Source: Physcomitrium patens (Eukaryota > Streptophyta > Bryopsida > Funariales > Funariaceae). From it: a stretch of 64,000 nucleotides of DNA. A program made the position numbers and the translations under genes. Shown in pieces: positions 23,331-56,640 of the stretch (position 1 is its first letter; each line of letters begins with the position of its first letter). Under the pieces are notes generated by a model, which did not search any database, was not told the DNA's origin, and saw only the letters and a list, made by a program, of their open reading frames with translations. The stretch is taken from the NCBI RefSeq assembly GCF_000002425.4, contig NC_037256.1, positions 16,960,830-17,024,829 on the forward strand. Direction: 5' to 3'.

Positions 23331-26300
23331 TCACAAATCTGACGGGATGGAAGGAATGAAGCGTGAGAGCTCGGCAGTGAGAGATTGGAACCCAATCACA
23401 AGCTGCGAATGAAATTCTTGATCCTCCTCCCCAATAAGTCTTGCATGCACCCGTATAGCTTTCTTGCACACGGCCATGAACTCCAGAAGTGCTGCTATGA
23501 GCTGCTGAAGTTCCTGTGGCTTGAGTCTTGTTGCAGGCTCCCCAGATAAGAAAGCAGCACAAACTCCAAGCACTCCACTGTTCACCTGTAAGAAGACATC
23601 AGGACTGTCAATCGCGATAATATAACACCTCTCGATGGTAAATGTTTTTGGAGGAAATATGTAGAATCTTTTAAGAATTCACTCACATTCAGAACTCAAA
23701 ATGAGATTGCAGTAGGGGAAATAAAGAAAGTACAATGACCTACACTAACTGATACACAATATAAAGCATGCAATTATTGTTAAGGGCTGAGCACTCCCAA
23801 GATTCACCTGCACTGCGACACTTCCTTGCAGTATCCGTTGCAGACTTTGCAACCTAGGGAGATGGTCACCTTCATTCAAACGGTGGTCATCTAGCTCCCC
23901 TGCTAAGGCAGCTGTACGGGTCTCAATCATGCCTATCGCATTCTCAATTGGCGAAAATTCTCGAGACTCTGACTTCACAACTGTTAAACGGTTCACAAGA
24001 GCTGGGAAAGGACCTTCTGTCCAAAGAACTGTACGTCTTTTCCATTGGTCCTCTAGACCTCCTTGCGACCTGCCATTCTTCGTGAAAGGGGTATCAAACA
24101 GAAAACGGTTGTACACCCGAGCACTCACCGTTGCCGCAGATCTGCAGGACTGTCTCTCTCGTCTACATTCCAGGTCCTCATCCTCAGTAACAGGCTCAAC
24201 AGATGTGATTTGCAGGTAGCAGATCTCCGGTTGAAGATCATTAACCTTCACTTGCCGAGAGTCAGGAATAATATGCAAGGACTGTTTTCCATCAATCACT
24301 CTTGGCTCATAAATATTTCCCAAGCTTCTCATAATATCCCCCAATCGCACATCCCTTGCCTCCCTGTAAACATATTCCTTGCAGTTCAGGCTGCCAAAAC
24401 TTTTTCCGTAGAAACCCACACGATAGTAAGTTGCATCCGTAAAGGGGATCGGACTAGATTCTTGCTCTACTATGGCTTCGTAAATGCTGGTCAGAGAAGT
24501 ATGGCACTTCGAGAGTTGTCCGTATGCACGCCTTGCTTTATGAACAGGAATGATAAGCTCCAAAATACCTGAAGAAGAATTAAATTATTTCAGTCGAGCA
24601 CAAGGAATCAGTAGGTGTTGGAAGCAGATTAAATTTTAACATTAATTCTTTTAAAAGTTTGAAAGAAAAAGGAAAGAAAACAAGAGCAGGATAATTAGTT
24701 TGAAACAAAGGAGCTCGGCGTCCAACATCGAAAAGTACATGTCTTACCAGCACAAAAATGAAAAAGCTCTCCCTGAACAAAAAGTTTATTTGCAAGCTGA
24801 AGATACTTTACGGCTGACTCCACAGTAAGCTTAGATGACCCATAGCCCTCTATCTCTGCACTAGCAGCTTCTCCAAAGCTAGCACCGGTAAGCATTGGGC
24901 AGATTTTTCGCAATGCTTCGACATGTTCCTTGCCCCACATGTGATCTCCTTTACCCACAATAGCCTGCATATGAAAGTGCAAGCACTAAGATTACCATCT
25001 GAATATCAACGCAACTTCAGATAAGTACACTGAAACATGCACCTTCTACAAAGATAAGTCGCCCAACCTAAAACAAATAAATAAATACAAAATAAAAAAT
25101 TAGACGGGATCCTATTCGTAGAGACGATGAATCGGTTATGTAGTTCACAAACCGTCCTACAGAACCTTTAAAATATACAATCTTAAGACGTGATTAGAAA
25201 AACTCCAGCTATCAATGTTTGAGTCACACGAGGAAGACACTGCCAGACTTGCACTCTTTGCATTTGGCACAGGAGGAATCATTTTTTCGTTCAAAGGAGA
25301 GGACAAACATCACAGGACAGATATATGATCATTACCACTATTCAAGACCGCATCGACCTGAACATTATTCACATTTTCTCAATTGAAACAGCCAAAAACA
25401 TTGAAGTGAAAAATCAGAATAAAACAAAAACAAAGGACCAGAAAACTCATTAGTCCGAGTACCTGCATAATGACACCAGCAACAGCAACTGCACACTGGG
25501 CTGCTTCTGCATAAGACTGGTTGCCTTGATGAACTTCACATAGATAGAGAAGCCACATAATGTGTAGATCAGGAACGTTGGAGTATGCCCTAGCCAGACC
25601 ATAGTATGCCTCAGCAGTGGCATATTTGTCAGTGGTCATGACTTCTGGGCCCTGCAGTAAGCCAGGACAGAACAGTGAGAAGTCCGAAATCTTATGACCT
25701 TTAGGGCAACACAAAACATGGAAGACATTGTGGTATGAAAACAAAGCGCAAAGAAGTTCAGGACTTTAACAACTGCTGCTTAACTTCTACGTCAGGCTCA
25801 ACCACATAACCAAATATTGTGATAAATAATTAAATGATTGATGGGACACCATTAAAACAATTGTCAACTTCACTGAATAGAAAGGCCAAGTACCAGAAGA
25901 GCATGTCCAACAGCAGCCTCAACAGCTTTAAGCAAAGTGCTAGAGAGCTCGGCAACTCCTGTCCAGCTCCAACTTTGCTCAAACTCTCCCTCTGGCATTA
26001 TTGATAGTGTATCTTCAGGAAGTCCACATTCACGAAGAAGATCTGCATTAATGTTCTCCTGAGCGATTTGCCGCAGCGATCTACGAAGGCGTTGGGACTC
26101 ACCACTTTCTTCTAAAGATCCATCCATTCGATGTTGTGTCACTTGAACATCCGACATAAGCTCGGACAGCGTGATTGTGAGCAACACACGCAGACGAGAG
26201 AGCCCTTTGAAATATTGGAAAGCTGTCTGTAGAAAGTAGAAAGTTTTTCAAATTAACAGAGTAAAAATAATTCGTTATATTTACACTCCACAACTGAACT

Positions 26301-43410: not shown

Positions 43411-44810
43411 TCATCGTCTCAGAGGTTTTCGTTTAATGCTCCATTTTCCTTTGTCTGCGTCACTCACTCTTGCCTCATAGGCGTTAATGAGTGCCTTCAC
43501 ATGTTTCAGATAGCTGGCAAATACCCACTGGTATTCCGTAACCGGAAACCCCTCAAAGGTGCATTGATACACCAGGCCCTATTCCCGTTTTTTCTTCCCT
43601 ACAATTCCATTGACTTGCCCCAACTTCTTGTCCCAAATTCCGTATGATGGCTCTGGCCTCAATACTTGTTCGGGGTGGAGGTTGTCCTTGTCCTTGGAGA
43701 ATTTCTTCAACCCGGACAAGTGGAATACGGGATGGAACCTGCCTTTCTTTGGGATATCAATCAGGTATACATCCTTATGTATAACCTTCATCACCTTGTA
43801 AGGTCCTGCCCACTTCTATACCCATTTATGTGACAAGGAATTGAGGATTGGCAAGTTCGTGGTGTTTAACCACACCATGTCTCCTACTTTGTGCACAACC
43901 TCGCGCCGGTGTTTATCCGCCGCAAGTTTGTATTTCTTCTGAGCGCGCTCCAGAAAGTAAGTTGCTTTCTTTTGAATGTGTTCTCGCTCGGAGACCCACT
44001 TGGCCACTTCCTCAGAAAAGAAGGTGGACGGGGAATCCTCCTCCTTCTTGGCTAGCACTAGGTCAGTTGGTTTTAATGCATCAAACCCGTGAGCTACTTT
44101 AAACGGACTCATGCCGATGCTTGTTGAGTGGGTGGTGTTGTAGCAGAACTCCGCTTGTGGTAACACATTCACCCAATCATCGTGATCCGCCGCTATGTAA
44201 TTTCTCAAGTACATGTTGAGAGTAGCGTTCACGCGCTCGGTTTGACCATCTCCTTGCGGATGAAACGTGGTTGTTAGAATGAGTTTGGTTCCCGACTTGC
44301 TCATCAGGTGCTGCCAAAAGGCAGTCAGGAACTGTGCACCCCTATCACTCACTATGTCTTCTGGATAGCCCATTTTGCATATCCAATGTTCATAGAAGAG
44401 CCGCGCCGTTGCTTCGGCGCCATCACCCCATTTCGTCGGGATGAATCTAGCTTGCTTGCTAAACCTATCGACAACCACGAAGATGACGTCATATCCCTGC
44501 ACCACTGGCAAAGAAGTCATGAAATCCATTGAAAGACACCCGTAAGGTGCTTTCGGTATAGGTAAAGGACTTAGCAAGCCCATCGTCCTTTGAGTGTTTG
44601 CCTTGTTCGTTTGGCACTTGGCGCATGTGGACACATACTTCTCCACATCTCCTTTGAGATTCGGCCAATAATACTTTTTGGACAACTCCTTCGTTGTCAC
44701 TAGCACTCCGCTGTGTCCGCTGTGTCCCGCTCCTCGCGCGTCATGGAACTCCCTCATCATCCTCCTCAGCAGGCTTCCCTCGGGGAAGTGAAAACTCGGT
44801 GAGCTAAGTG
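43411..44810 (-). pseudogene. Gypsy (chromovirus) integrase and chromodomain fragment
   Basis: One continuous frame of about 460 codons carries the 3' end of a Gypsy polyprotein. It holds the H2C2 zinc finger (EFHDARGAGHSG..KYYWP..YVSTCAKCQ), then the integrase core: LSMDFMTSLP (first Asp), IVSDRGAQFLTAFW (second Asp) and HPQGDGQTERVNATL (Glu). The GPY-like segment WAGPYKVMKV..LIDIPKKGRFHPVFH follows, and finally a chromodomain (TFEGFPVTEYQWV). Two in-frame TAG codons break it, at 43,818-43,816 and 43,581-43,579. The first sits just before the conserved KW.GP motif. Protease, reverse transcriptase and RNase H are missing: homology starts abruptly at FHFPEGSLLRRMM near 44,805. No 5' LTR adjoins, so the element is 5'-truncated and inactive, though lightly decayed and therefore fairly young. 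Confidence 0.93.
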
Positions 44811-44819
44811 ACTAAATTC

Positions 44820-47280: not shown

Positions 47281-47737
47281 TGGTACGTTGAAAAGTAAAA
47301 GGTACGAGAGCGCGGGCTTGGGGTTCAGTAGTCGGGGGGGAGCTTTAGTGTCCAGGTCCAGGTGTCAAGACACGCGTTGCAACCCCACAAGGGAGGGACT
47401 CTGTGTAGAAAAGCAAGCCTTTAAGGTGGTGGAAGTACTTTTTAGGGCTAGGCTTCCAGATGGTTCTTAGGAGACCGGCTTTGGATTTCAATAGGCCACT
47501 ATTGTGTGCAGGGCCTCGCCATTGCTTAACTTTGTGCGAGTTAAGCTTTGATCGTGTTCTCGGATCGTCGTCAGCTCGCGCCGTGGTGGAGAGGTTTTCT
47601 CTACCCAAGCTTTGTTTTCAGCAATTCTGGTGAGTCCGTGAGGTGGATATTAGGTGTTTTTTGTGAGGTAGCGAGTAATTGATTGTTGAGCTTGGATATT
47701 GCGAAGGAGAGGAAGGAGAAGAATCGAGAGAGTAGCG
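47281..47737 (+). promoter_or_regulatory. NPL4 5' flank / leader
   Basis: GC-balanced sequence directly upstream of the NPL4 start codon, with GGGGGGG near 47,333 and a mixed pyrimidine-rich part. No TATA box was identified with confidence. The coding frame stays open for 13 codons upstream of the ATG at 47,738 but lacks an ATG there, so the start is well placed. Confidence 0.4.
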
Positions 47738-49461
47738 ATGTTGATCAGATTGAGGAGTCGGGATGGGTTGGAGCGGGTAACGTTAGCGAACAACGCGACG
47801 GTGGGGGATCTACAGGCGGCGATAGCGGAGAATCTGAATGTGCCCGTGAGCAGCCAGCTGCTGTCAAGGAACCAGGCTCTGTTGCTGAGCAAGGATCCCG
47901 TGAATGGGAAGGAGTTTGCGGACATGCAGGACTCGGGAGCGACGTTGTCGTCGTTGGGAATTGCGCATGGGAGTTTGTTGTACTTGTTTTACAGTGGGAA
48001 TAGAGTGGTGAAGGGACCTCAAGTGACGCCGTTTGGGGCGTTTGGGAGGAAGATGACCGTGGAGGATTTGATTGCCCGGCAGATTCGGATAGAAAGGCAG
48101 GAGAAGTCGCACTGCAGTGCGTTGTCGTTCGATCGGGAAGCTGCGAATGCGTTTCAGCTGTATGTGCATGAGAGCCTCGCGTTTTCAATTAAGAGAGGGG
48201 GGATCATGTATGGTTCTGTAAATGAGGCAGGCGAGATTAAGGTAGACGTTATTTATGAGCCACCACAGCAAGGGTCTGAGGAAGGCTTGCTCCTTATGAG
48301 AGATATGGATGAGGAGAAACGAGCTGACGTGATCGCTGCAGGATTAGGGTTACGGAAAGTAGGGTTCATTTTCACGCAGACAATAACCCAGAATCAGGGG
48401 GGGTACACATTATCAAACGCAGAAATACGGCAGACAGCTGAATTTCATGCCGAGTCGGACTTTGAGCAATGGGCCACAGCAATAGTGAAGCTTGAAGTCA
48501 ACGAAGATGGTGGTGCAGATGTTCATTTTGAGGCATTTCAATTAAGTGATCAGTGCGTGAAGCTATTCAAGGACGGTTTGTTTGAGGAGAATGTGCCAGA
48601 TCTGGACCCGAAGTTAACGAGAATGAAGAAAGAAGTTATAGTCCTTCAGAAAGACACTTTCGATGTTGACAACGACTTTTTCTTAGTTCCTGTGAAGATT
48701 CTTGATCATGAGGTATGTGTTTTAAGTTCCTCACCCTTCTTCTGGACCCGTTCCACGTTGTCTTGGAAAAATATTCTCCATGTGCTGTATTTGTTGTTGG
48801 AATTCCCACACTGTTATCTATGCACACGCTTCATCTGTGTAGAATTTGTTTGTTACAATGAATATAGTAATTTCATGGTTTATCCTCCGGTTTTTGGTAT
48901 AGTTTGCAGCCACATTCATAGATTCGAATCACTTGATGGACCCGGTCCTTGATATTGACTTTCTGTTTTGTTAGGATTGAACTTTTGTTTTATGTTACAT
49001 GTCTGATTTAAGGTTTGTCTTAATTTTCCTGTCCTTTCATTCGTTGGGTATCTTCTATGCTTTTCGGGAGCTGTTCAGTCATCATGTTCAATTGAAAACA
49101 GCATAGCACTTGGTTTGAGTGGCTACTTTAGTTCATACGTTTACTGGTGTTACAAGTGAATTGCAGAGGATATGATATCAATATTGATTACGTTTTCTAT
49201 TTGCAGGGCCCGATGACAACAACATTCCCCATTGAGAATAGAGCACCTCTCGCTACCCTTCAGGCTTTGAAGACTCATTTGGAGCGTCACAGGAATAAGC
49301 CCTATGTGAAGCGGATCGCTGACTTTCATCTTCTTCTGTTGTTGTCGAACTTCCTTGACATCAACACAGATGTTCCACAGCTGACGGAGGCTATTCGTAC
49401 AGAAGGCCCTGTACCAGAAGGGTACCAACTCATTATCGAGTCCATGGCGAGTAGTTTTTAG
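47738..49461 (+). CDS. NPL4: NPL4-like ubiquitin-recognition cofactor of CDC48
   Basis: Two exons, 47,738-48,712 and 49,207-49,461 (GAG/GTATGT donor, TTGCAG/GGC acceptor, phase 0), encode 409 residues, the usual plant length (about 413). With UFD1, NPL4 recruits polyubiquitinated clients to the AAA ATPase CDC48 in ER-associated and nuclear/chromatin protein turnover. Residues 1-75 form the ubiquitin-like fold (MLIRLRSRDGLERV). They are followed by FGRKMTVEDLIARQ..RQEKSHC and the catalytically inactive MPN region (FQLYVHESLAFSIKRGG, YGSV, VIYEPPQQG, GLGLRKVGFIFTQT, EFHAESDFEQW). Exon 2 encodes TFPIENR, LKTHLERHR, FHLLLLLSNFLD and VPEGY..IIESMA. As in other plants there is no C-terminal NZF finger. 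All conserved blocks are intact. The ATG at 47,738 aligns with the family start. Confidence 0.96.
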
Positions 49462-51541: not shown

Positions 51542-54500
51542 TTACGAATTCTCCACCCTCGTGGCTTCAACCATGTAATCAAAATTTGAACAGTCAAACT
51601 TTGAAACAGCTCTGCCTGGAAGCCCACCCAAGGAAGCAATAATATCCTGATTCCACATGCTAAACTTATTTTTACCAACAGGCACTTTTGCATACCAGAC
51701 AACTTGATCGCTCCACTTGGGGAGGCTCTTGAGGAATAAGGGATGAGGTGCCGGCTCAGAGCCCAGCCAAATTGGTCGATGTGCCATTAAAACGTGGTAT
51801 GTCTCTAAAACATCAGTGATGTAGCACCTAATGGAATGACGTGGCTGGTTGTCAATATTGAGCTTCAAGTTCGCTCCCATGCCTCGCGTATACCTATATG
51901 TTCAGAATTTAAGGCAACAGATTAAATCTCTCCTCTTCCATGGGATAATATGACTGGCTTTCACAGGCTTCCGTGATTCACCATTAGCACAAGCACTGCC
52001 ATCAAGAGTAAACCATTCTTGGATCAGTCAAAATCGTATCGCCAAGGTAATATAATTTCAAAGTATATTAAGGTTCCACATTCTGACCTTAGGCACTCCC
52101 CATGTTCGTCAGTGAATAGTTCAAAATCAACGTCAGATAATTCTCGAAGTTCGCTTCGCCCTTTAACACAGAAGTCACGCAAACAGAAGTAGACGAACCG
52201 CCTATTGCATCCCTCTGGGTGTGTATTGGAGAACTTGCATTGACTTAACATGCCAATTTCATTCATAGGTGGGTGTACCTCCAGCGTCATAACTTCTTTT
52301 GCTGACTCTATTGCTGCAGACTTAGCTACGGCTTCCTCAACTGCCAGCTTCACTCTAAGAAACCGAGGATCACGGTAAATGCTGAACGGAACTTTGGCGA
52401 TTCCAGTCTCAGCCGTTCTTTGCAATTCGCGGGCTCTGATGATACGTCCTATGGCTCGCAACATTGCTTGGATACTGCAAATAAGAGCCATTCACATGCA
52501 TTAGTTAATGATGAAAAAGCCTGCAACCCAAAAGTTCCGTGCTATGATTACATCCAGTGGTAGAGATGACTTAAGAGATCCAATCTCAAGCTCAACCCAA
52601 CTCAGCACTTGTAGAGGAAATCAACGGTAACCTTTGATGAAAATTTCAACTAAATGTTGATCTAAAAAAAAAACTAACTAACTACACCTTTCAATACCAA
52701 GGCACAACCAAGAGCTAAGCAAAGATTAACAGGATGGGTTGATGTACAACCTGGCTGGTGGATACGACTGCCCATTCTGTTTTGTGAGTTGGGACATAAA
52801 CTCGCATAGCATATCAACTAGCGGCCTTACATCACATAGTTCAGACAAATCCTCAATTGAAAGGTCTGTACTGTGACCGTTTGCACTCCTCCATGCATCA
52901 AAAGCTTTCCTTGCCCACATTTCAGGGTAGTTTTTCTCACTTCTTTCTTTTGCTTCAGATTGTAATCTGTACTTCAAAGGCGACTTAGGCCGTGCTGTTC
53001 CAATCAACGCAGCTCTTAAAGCTGCGACACTTTTCATAGCATGAGGACCAATTATTCTTGTACGCTTGTATTGCTGAACGCCAGGCTCGAAGATAGTTGT
53101 GAACTTTCTTTTGTCTGGCAAGGGATTCCTGGTGACTATGTTTTGCAATTTCTCGGCACCGGGCTCGTCAGTATGAAGTACATTATTCTTCTCCTCCGTA
53201 TCCTCTTTTCCAGAGACAATGCTCTTCTCAGCAATACCATCCTCTGCAAGGACTTCACGATCACTTCCACTAACGTCAAGGACTCCAGGAACTGTCATCA
53301 TGGATGTATCGCTTGCATCTTCCTTCTCTTCTTCACTGTGCGGTACTTGCACCCCATTTTCTGGACCGGCCGCCTCCATACCACCAGTTTGAGTAGGCGT
53401 AGGAGGACAAGGTGCTTGTGGGGGTTGCGGAGCTGGAAGAGGCTGCGCATACTGCAACATTTGAGAGGTTGATGACGAAGTATGTACGGTGGCAAAAGGC
53501 CCTAAGAGCAAATTCAGAGGGTGATCAGCATGCTATAGATTAAAACTAATATACAAAAGTAAAGTTAACAATCTACCTTAGTGTAAGCCGATGGTCTGAA
53601 TGCTAGAAGATACCACTTAGAACATGTACCAAGAAAAACACAAGAAATAAACAAAGAAATAAATAATATAAAACTAAAGAAGCAAAGGTTATAGGGTCAT
53701 GATTGCGAATCCATAGTAACGTCCTCGACACATAACACAGATACATCTTGAGAGTTGATAAAAATAAAAATAAATAAATAAATAAAAATTACCTTTTGAC
53801 TCTTTTGTGATTGCTTTCAGGTTCTCTGGGAGGGCCTCTCTTGAATGCAATGCAGTTGATGGCGCTGGTGTCAAAGAGTCAACCTTCTTTTGCTTCTTCA
53901 CACTGCATTAACAAACCAACATAATAAGTTTGTGCAATCTATCCAAAAGGAGGGCAATAAGTGCAAACAATATCGAGGACCTCTACCAATTGTCTGTTCA
54001 CGGTACCAAACAACCTTAACTCCATACGTCTACACGGAAAAACTCTAAACAGGCATAAATTAGTCCATTCTTGACATTATCACGCATTTATAAAGCATCA
54101 GACCACAGAGTGTTTAACATTCTAATAGGAACGACGAACTCCCCACACAATCAATAGTAGCAATGCCAGGGACGGGTTGTTCGCATGATTATCTAAATAA
54201 ATGGTCACTCTCCAAGTTGAACAAAAGACGTAATGGTGCCGAGTGCGTAACGGCACGTGCAGGAGACATTCACATCGATAAATAAATGAAAAGGTATCGA
54301 ACAAACCTGACAATATCCGAATTCAGGAGAAGGCTTGCTAACTCTGTTGGAGGCAGAGCAAAACCATCCATCTGGAATTCCACATAATAACAAAAATCTC
54401 TTATATGTACGCAAGATTTCTAAACATTACCGTGCTGCAGAAAGCTATTCATGGGCATGAAAACTCACACTTTTGGCCGAGACGGTGATTACAATATTCA

Positions 54501-54966
54501 ACACATTCCGCTTCAAACGATTATGCCAGGGCATAGCACCGGAAATCAAGCCAAGCTTATACTTATGTCCCAGTATAAAGATTATGGTGTAAACCAAGCT
54601 GGATTGACATTTGGACTTAGACATACAGATTCACCTGCCATGACAGTCTTTCAAAGTGTACAAAAATCATCCGCTAAACTGGGACAGAAAAGAATCTCAT
54701 CGACAGCAATACACTAACTAGTATCTAAGACCTGGAGTACAGCGAAAGTTGTATCTTGGACTTTATACCTCAAGGGAAAGTCCTTCACGGCAAGAATGCT
54801 GAAGATCGAATTTGGCAGCGATATGAGCAGCAAGTTGGCCAATGGTAAGTATATAATTGTGTACAAGGATCCAACATTTGGACAGTCCTTGATCGACTTG
54901 CTGTGGAGTAAGAATGTCTGGATCGCCAAAACATAACCTAATCCTCACCCCTTTCTTCATGTCCAT
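51542..54966 (-). CDS. Coilin N-terminal domain fused to a Crypton/DUF3504-like domain
   Basis: Six exons (54,966-54,769; 54,371-54,307; 53,902-53,793; 53,501-52,751; 52,474-52,088; 51,893-51,542) join in frame with GT-AG introns of 194-404 bases. They encode 620 residues. Residues 1-95 match the plant coilin N-terminal self-association domain: GVRIRLCFGDPDIL, QGLSKCWILV, TIGQLAAHI..KFDL, EGLSLEMDGFALPP, LNSDIVSVKKQKK. Coilin scaffolds Cajal bodies. A Pro/Ser-rich and acidic linker follows (about 125-270). From about 300 the protein resembles the Crypton tyrosine-recombinase-derived domain of ZMYM2/QRICH1: WARKAFDAW, QNGQSYPPASIQAMLRAIGR, CNRRFVYFCLRDFCVKGRSE, RYTRGMGANLKL, PLFLKSLP..SDQVVWYAKVP. 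The normal coilin C-terminal Tudor-like region is absent. The catalytic part of the recombinase is degenerate or missing. An in-frame upstream ATG at 55,122 would add 52 residues. Confidence 0.78.
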
Positions 54967-56640
54967 CGTCGATCGAATATCCGTTTGGCCAGTAACTGCA
55001 TGCAGTGAAGATGATTGATTCCCAGTAGTACATTCGCCGCCATGCAAGCGTATGGAAGAGCTCTTCCCAGCTGATAATGAAGAACTCTTTCTGCAGGGCC
55101 TAATGGCCAATTGACGAAACATTGACACCCTTTGTTCCTCGGTTACCACGGTGTTGCGTGACTATCCTATCCGCACCTTAATTATGCCTTCGGTCACGTA
55201 CTAAGCCAACGTTTACTTCAAACGAAGTAGGATTACACTCCTGGCTGTGCACAAAATTTGACTCAATTCCTTCAGAACCATTATCCACATCAATCACCGC
55301 CAATCATTGGTGCTGTAGAAGCCTTAAGATTCCCACAAAAATTTCTACGCAACCCAAGACGCAATGCATAATGGTCAATTCAATGTACAGCACCAGTATT
55401 TTTAACATAACAAAAAAATTGATTCTGTAACAAAGGCAGCGAGGCCAACACAGACTGAGCAAAAATTGGAATTGCGGTCTGATGCAAGGAGGACCTACAT
55501 TCCATGTTCAGATACAGTCTTCACAGTGTATCAGACCAATAAAATTTAGGGGGCAAGAAATTTTTTTAAAGCCACGTCCTAAACTCAAATTTGTGGCTCC
55601 TACGTGGCAGCAATTTCTGCTGCTGAAGGGGATTAGCCAAGTTGTGAAGTACGAATACCACCAATTCTCGGATAATCCGATCAGAATTCAAAAAAGAGAA
55701 AAAACAGCGAACGATATCAACACGTTCTATACAACTGACGGCAAGTCCACCAGGATAGTTCCTTACAATAGAAAGGAAATAAGGTGCAGACCACTTGGCA
55801 GGCAGCGAAGTCTCCGTTGCTCACAAAAAACCTTTCTCCTACCCTCTCGCAAACTATCACTCCCATCTTCATTCCTAGACGAACCCCAACATAAAACCTC
55901 CACATAAACTCTTCTCTCACACCACTCACACAAAAATAGAAACAACAAAGAGCGTAAATCCAAACAACCGCAACAAACAATCACTCAACGCCACCAAACA
56001 TCACCCCTCATCACCCTCTAGACCTAAACTAAAACCACGACGAGGAAAATCCCAACCTCCTTAAACCCCAATTCTGCGACGCGCTCAAGTGACATAGTAG
56101 CTGAAGCAAACAGGCACCGGTCAGACTCTGACATCGACAACCGACACTCGACTCTCGCGACATCGTCAAAACCAAAATTACCCGGACCCGCAGCCGGAAA
56201 CCCAAAAAAAAACGAACAAACAGAACAAAAGGAGTAAAAAAAAAAGAAAAAAAAAATGTGAAAAGAAGAAGACGAAGAAGGAAATCCGATTCACTAAAGA
56301 CCTAATGAAGTTGTGCCTTTCCTTCCACCGCCCGATCGCTGGACCGCGAACGAACGTCGATCGCCTTTGCACGTGAGGGTGAATTGCCACCGACACAGAC
56401 TCTCGAAAGCTCCCCCCCGTAGGATGAGTTCCGCTTCATGCTGCCCGTGCCCCTGCCCCTGCCCTAACAGTCCTGCCCAAGGCAGAGGTAGACCACCTCG
56501 CTCTGCCCGGGCCCTTCCGGGCATGGGGGCCATTCTACCTGCGGGATTGAGAGTGGGTTCGGCCTGTAAGGAAGTGCCACGGAGGATGTTCCGGGGGAGT
56601 GAGAATCGCGAATGGTGAGGGATGTGAGTGCGAAATAAAT
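54967..56640 (-). promoter_or_regulatory. Coilin-like gene 5' flank / leader
   Basis: GC-balanced to GC-rich sequence upstream of the coilin-like start. The frame remains open to about 55,149, including an ATG at 55,122. 56,290-56,600 is the most GC-rich part of the window (CCGTGCCCCTGCCCCTGCCC repeats near 56,445-56,465) and probably marks a promoter. Open frames on both strands here are low in complexity (Pro, Gly, Arg) and are not called as genes. Confidence 0.4.

Follow-up and report, generated by a model that had tools for sequence, protein, structure and literature searches.

A coilin domain probably joined to a domesticated recombinase-type domain in the moss Physcomitrium patens

The locus considered here raises the question of whether a single moss gene joins the N-terminal domain of coilin, a Cajal-body scaffold, to a recombinase-type domain, or whether two neighbouring genes have been read as one. 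It lies on the minus strand at 54966-51542 of a stretch of 64,000 nucleotides of Physcomitrium patens DNA (contig C4, the whole of which is termed the window), where translation gives six exons and one stop-free frame of 620 amino acids. The gene is probably a moss fusion of the 5' part of a coilin gene with a domesticated, catalytically dead recombinase gene of the DUF3504/QRICH1 type, and the pairing looks both real and selected. The joined frame, the coilin domain, the absence of a catalytic end, the selection on both halves and the presence of a separate canonical coilin are read from sequence; the kinship to recombinases is drawn from relatives and from modelled structure. The parts of the gene, all on the minus strand, are as follows.

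54967..55122, minus strand: upstream in-frame stretch that serves as the N-terminus in P0002, a public gene model; probably part of the 5' untranslated region.
54769..54966, minus strand: exon 1, first part of the coilin N-terminal domain; ends in phase 0, with intron 1 in the place and phase seen in the coilin gene of contig C16.
54307..54371, minus strand: exon 2, second part of the coilin N-terminal domain; ends in phase 2, with intron 2 again in the place and phase of the C16 coilin gene.
53793..53902, minus strand: exon 3, last part of the coilin N-terminal domain, with a basic KKQKK stretch; ends in phase 1.
52751..53501, minus strand: exon 4, a linker with conserved basic motifs, then the first half of a putative core-binding domain (recombinase-type, QRICH1-like).
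52088..52474, minus strand: exon 5, which completes the putative core-binding domain and opens the DUF3504-like region; the public isoform P0002 arises from an alternative end at 52279.
51542..51893, minus strand: exon 6, DUF3504-like region, stopping short of the catalytic end kept in a Riccia relative.

The five introns are all GT-AG, and their phases of 0, 2, 1, 2 and 2 reproduce the single frame proposed in the initial annotation, which had been made from the letters of the DNA. The claim that one gene crosses the 53,793/53,501 junction is supported too, as the public P. patens protein P0002 (505 amino acids) matches the first 441 residues of the 620-residue model exactly, including the join of exons 3 and 4. 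The window yields the complete P0002 sequence without a mismatch when an ATG at 55122 is combined with unchanged exons 1-4, an exon 5 running to 52279 and an exon 6 read in a different frame; the join is therefore present in the public gene model, and a C-terminally truncating isoform is annotated too. The ATG at 54966 seems a likelier start than the one at 55122, because residues 1-119 of P0002 are 63% identical to the duplicate copy of the gene on contig C26 whereas the coilin part alone reaches 88%, and because the Ceratodon purpureus protein P0006 is without an N-terminal extension like that of P0002.

The identity of the first half is clear, with Coilin_N of Pfam matched at residues 7-122 of the 620-residue protein (E 2.3e-12; 47.4 bits, the cut-off being 32.9), in agreement with the earlier reading of exons 1-3 as coilin's self-association domain. 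No Tudor-like C-terminal domain was found in the fusion by Pfam at E up to 10, where Coilin_N and a weak QRICH1 domain were the only matches. Another coilin gene, on contig C16, has introns 1 and 2 matching those of the fusion in place and phase, and its N-terminal domain is 49% identical to that of the fusion and 54% to that of P0006. Its N-terminal piece, joined by eye, matches Coilin_N at 3.9e-5, under the cut-off, and its C-terminal piece matches Tudor_Coilin at 9.4e-26. This gene is taken as the canonical coilin of P. patens, and as it keeps the Tudor_Coilin domain, the fusion is an added paralogue and not, as had been supposed, a replacement of coilin's usual C-terminus. In an alignment to what we take to be the human sequence, the fusion retains the equivalents of human R8 and D79, and the position of human R36 is presumably a leucine in the fusion as well as in P0006 and the C16 coilin. 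In human coilin, R8 and D79 are tied to self-association and R36 to Nopp140 binding in the sections of PMC9556525 that bear on them. Canonical plant coilin, as far as it is covered in an extract of PMC3539977, resembles the fusion in its N-terminal domain and, judged by the C16 gene, in the place and phase of introns 1 and 2, but has a Tudor-like C-terminal domain where the moss fusion has the recombinase-type domain.

The second half had been assigned to DUF3504, and this assignment stands through relatives and modelled structure and not on the window protein alone. On that protein the QRICH1 domain PF25561 is matched at E 0.11 (13.0 bits against a cut-off of 30.8), and no row for PF12012, the DUF3504 family, is returned by Pfam at E up to 10. 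A paralogue on contig C10, 42% identical, matches DUF3504 at 1.2e-4 at the place corresponding to the C-terminal half of the fusion, with 22.7 bits (24.1 when trimmed), below the Pfam cut-off of 29.7. Among six trimmed family members, the QRICH1 domain was matched in four and DUF3504 in two. Rows 1-16 of the VIA-align search with the modelled structure of the C26 paralogue name QRICH1 once and Cre/Tre 15 times, and rows 1-7 for the Ceratodon member name Cre/Tre; in both, recombinase-fold chains rank above the next unrelated row, the two models having most alignment rows in common and thus not being independent. Foldseek alone gave no row at E 0.001, a search of solved-structure sequences with the fusion hit RAD23B twice, weakly, over residues 81-241 (E 0.55 and 0.56), and a profile of the six trimmed members found no match among solved-structure sequences. 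Relatives and modelled structure support a kinship of the C-terminal half to DUF3504/Crypton tyrosine recombinases.

The fusion ends where its Riccia and C10 relatives continue into an arginine, TGH-type and tyrosine stretch, motifs which we take to be those of the recombinase catalytic end, and no remnant of such an end was found downstream of the gene within the window. As read from its sequence, the fusion has lost the catalytic end and is not the complete tyrosine recombinase of an active Crypton transposon.

Evidence that both halves are maintained comes from the duplicate on contig C26, where matches for all six exons are found; the block that holds them is collinear with the window, as seen at five places over 39.4 to 46.4 kb. 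The ratio of nonsynonymous to synonymous substitution rates (dN/dS) between the C4 and C26 copies, averaging over both lineages, is 0.06 for coilin exons 1-2 (bootstrap 0.02-0.13, dS 0.69) and 0.10 for the recombinase domain (bootstrap 0.06-0.16, dS 0.65), with 0.39 for the linker (bootstrap 0.25-0.61, dS 0.51); identity across the three introns compared is 57-64%. Purifying selection has acted on both domains since the segmental duplication, and their low ratios indicate that both are maintained as protein.

The architecture was also found in a second moss, one of the checks proposed in the initial annotation. P0006 of Ceratodon purpureus has Coilin_N at 3.6e-8, above the cut-off, followed by a weak QRICH1 domain match (0.024), in the domain order of the fusion. 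The public protein searches gave matches for 5 of 7217 candidates, 2 of 279 and at least 15 of 7996, and the species named among the matches listed are P. patens, Ceratodon purpureus and Riccia sorocarpa; further proteins among those listed are 54-84% identical to the query across pieces of exon 4 or 5. As such a search depends on shared words and missed the C16 coilin, absence elsewhere is not shown by it. Likewise, Coilin_N run against the moss's own genome at the default E-value gave no match despite the copy in the window and detected none of 14 controls, and is uninformative. Sixteen proteins were collected for comparison, with P0007 omitted from alignment A2 and both P0007 and P0013 from A3; alignments A1 and A4 have 6 rows each, and the trees have 7 and 13.

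How many fusions these two mosses represent is a separate matter. The Physcomitrium and Ceratodon proteins could be two separate coilin fusions to different members of one recombinase-derived family, which is somewhat unlikely but has several points in its favour. In the tree of 7 rows the recombinase part of the Ceratodon protein has a very long end branch, of 1.56 changes per site, and this part is 33% identical to the C10 paralogue over 207 residues versus 30% to P0002 over 107, figures that are not like for like as P0002 is without the later part; its coilin part is 54% identical to the C16 coilin versus 48% to the C4 fusion and 46% to P0002. However, a branch that long cannot be placed, and for this reason the tree does not distinguish one fusion event from two, and a single fusion is the simpler account of identical partners in identical order.

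The observations that weigh against a fusion, or against its being essential, come largely from the C26 copy. Its exon 3 (locus L018, from about position 2602) has an in-frame TAG after KKQ, between the two halves, and that copy would therefore encode the coilin N-terminal domain alone, about 92 residues, yet exons 1-2 of the C4 and C26 pair are under purifying selection; the public protein P0001 of the same locus begins within exon 3 in a different frame. To these is added the Pfam search above, in which the C-terminal half of the window protein by itself came close to scoring with no DUF3504 or Crypton family, a result answered only by the paralogues and the structures. The stop and the start of P0001 are what would be expected if two adjacent genes, a short coilin-N gene and a recombinase-like gene starting in exon 3 or 4, had been merged by annotation or by occasional read-through. 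Such a merger is improbable, as the C4 frame is open across the join, P0002 makes the identical join, both halves stand in a single public Ceratodon protein (although a prediction bias common to the two public models is conceivable), and the phase-1 donor between exons 3 and 4 of the C26 copy is intact apart from the single stop. An unrelated helical domain in the C-terminal half, resembling DUF3504 and recombinases by chance, is very improbable, since the non-significant Pfam and Foldseek results and the failure of the profile are set against the C10 match at the corresponding place and the recombinase-fold chains in the top rows of two modelled members, dependent as these are.

A fusion of this kind would have arisen by duplication of the 5' part of a coilin gene, exons 1-3 with coilin's introns, which a phase-1 intron would then join to a tyrosine-recombinase gene of the DUF3504/QRICH1 type that had been domesticated and was catalytically dead. 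The coilin domain would probably co-assemble with canonical coilin and so carry the recombinase-derived domain into Cajal bodies or their vicinity; there this domain might, with less assurance, bind DNA or transcription factors like its counterpart in QRICH1. By this analogy, the likely role would be that of a coilin-tethered, QRICH1-like binding module. A more specific version is doubtful; in it the paralogue is recruited by canonical coilin and, much as QRICH1 would, connects certain genes or transcription factors with Cajal bodies, the C26 N-terminal domain alone tuning coilin assembly. QRICH1 reportedly works with zinc-finger factors, according to the title of PDB entry 9hjt and to a reference-list entry for the Zincore paper.

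No report of a coilin-recombinase fusion was found in the open-access library searched, in keeping with the novelty first claimed for the gene. Domesticated Crypton recombinases are discussed by Kojima and Jurka 2011 (PMC3212892), in the portion drawn on here, for animals and fungi; the DUF3504 genes of animals named there are QRICH1, ZMYM2/3/4, WOC, KIAA1958 and KCTD1, and DNA binding or protein-protein interaction is proposed for their domains. As in the moss fusion, these genes hold, in that portion of the source, a Crypton-type domain without catalytic residues inside a longer host protein, and on modelled structure QRICH1 would be the nearest match to the moss family. The moss gene differs in its host, in having the coilin N-terminal domain as partner and in the complete absence of the catalytic end. 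The ALOG plant regulators, according to an excerpt of PMC3537659, likewise have a DNA-binding domain derived from a tyrosine recombinase, but of DIRS1-type origin and with no coilin joined; the likeness is one of description. A domesticated relative of recombinases joined to a Cajal-body scaffold domain in a model moss, and under selection, would be a testable case for the tethering of a new activity to Cajal bodies. Physcomitrium patens is a plant with easy gene targeting.

Another arrangement of the recombinase-type domain is seen on contig C10 (L013/L014, about 2038568-2042087), where the domain with the DUF3504 match is followed by BTB (1.3e-8), the exon model being approximate and the join to the BTB part weakly supported. 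The order of DUF3504 then BTB is that of vertebrate KCTD1 isoform b in the same portion of PMC3212892, a likeness that belongs to this paralogue and its approximate model and not to the fusion gene. On contig C14 (L015, about 1737100-1739400) the order is also recombinase-type domain then BTB, as read by eye only.

The linker of the fusion holds a basic stretch, DKRKF...YKRTRIIGPHAMKSVAALRAALIG, at residues 254-292 (exon 4, the region of 53020-53060 and 52990-53000), which is nearly invariant across several other proteins found in the public protein searches and could serve as a nuclear localisation or binding motif. A linker motif pattern fits six of the eight proteins tried, P0014 and P0006 being the two that do not fit.

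Pfam matches were absent from three of six open reading frames of the window submitted to it. Outside the fusion gene, the following features were recognised.

47690-48952, plus strand: NPL4 gene (NPL4 3.2e-13, UN_NPL4 7e-9), lying downstream of the fusion at a distance of about 2.6 kb; the C26 loci searched showed no copy beside the duplicate.
43816-44811, minus strand: Ty3/gypsy-type integrase remnant (Integrase_H2C2 3e-16, rve 3.5e-6).
23745-24584, minus strand: DOCK-type exchange factor gene, partial (DHR-2 lobe B 4.2e-21).
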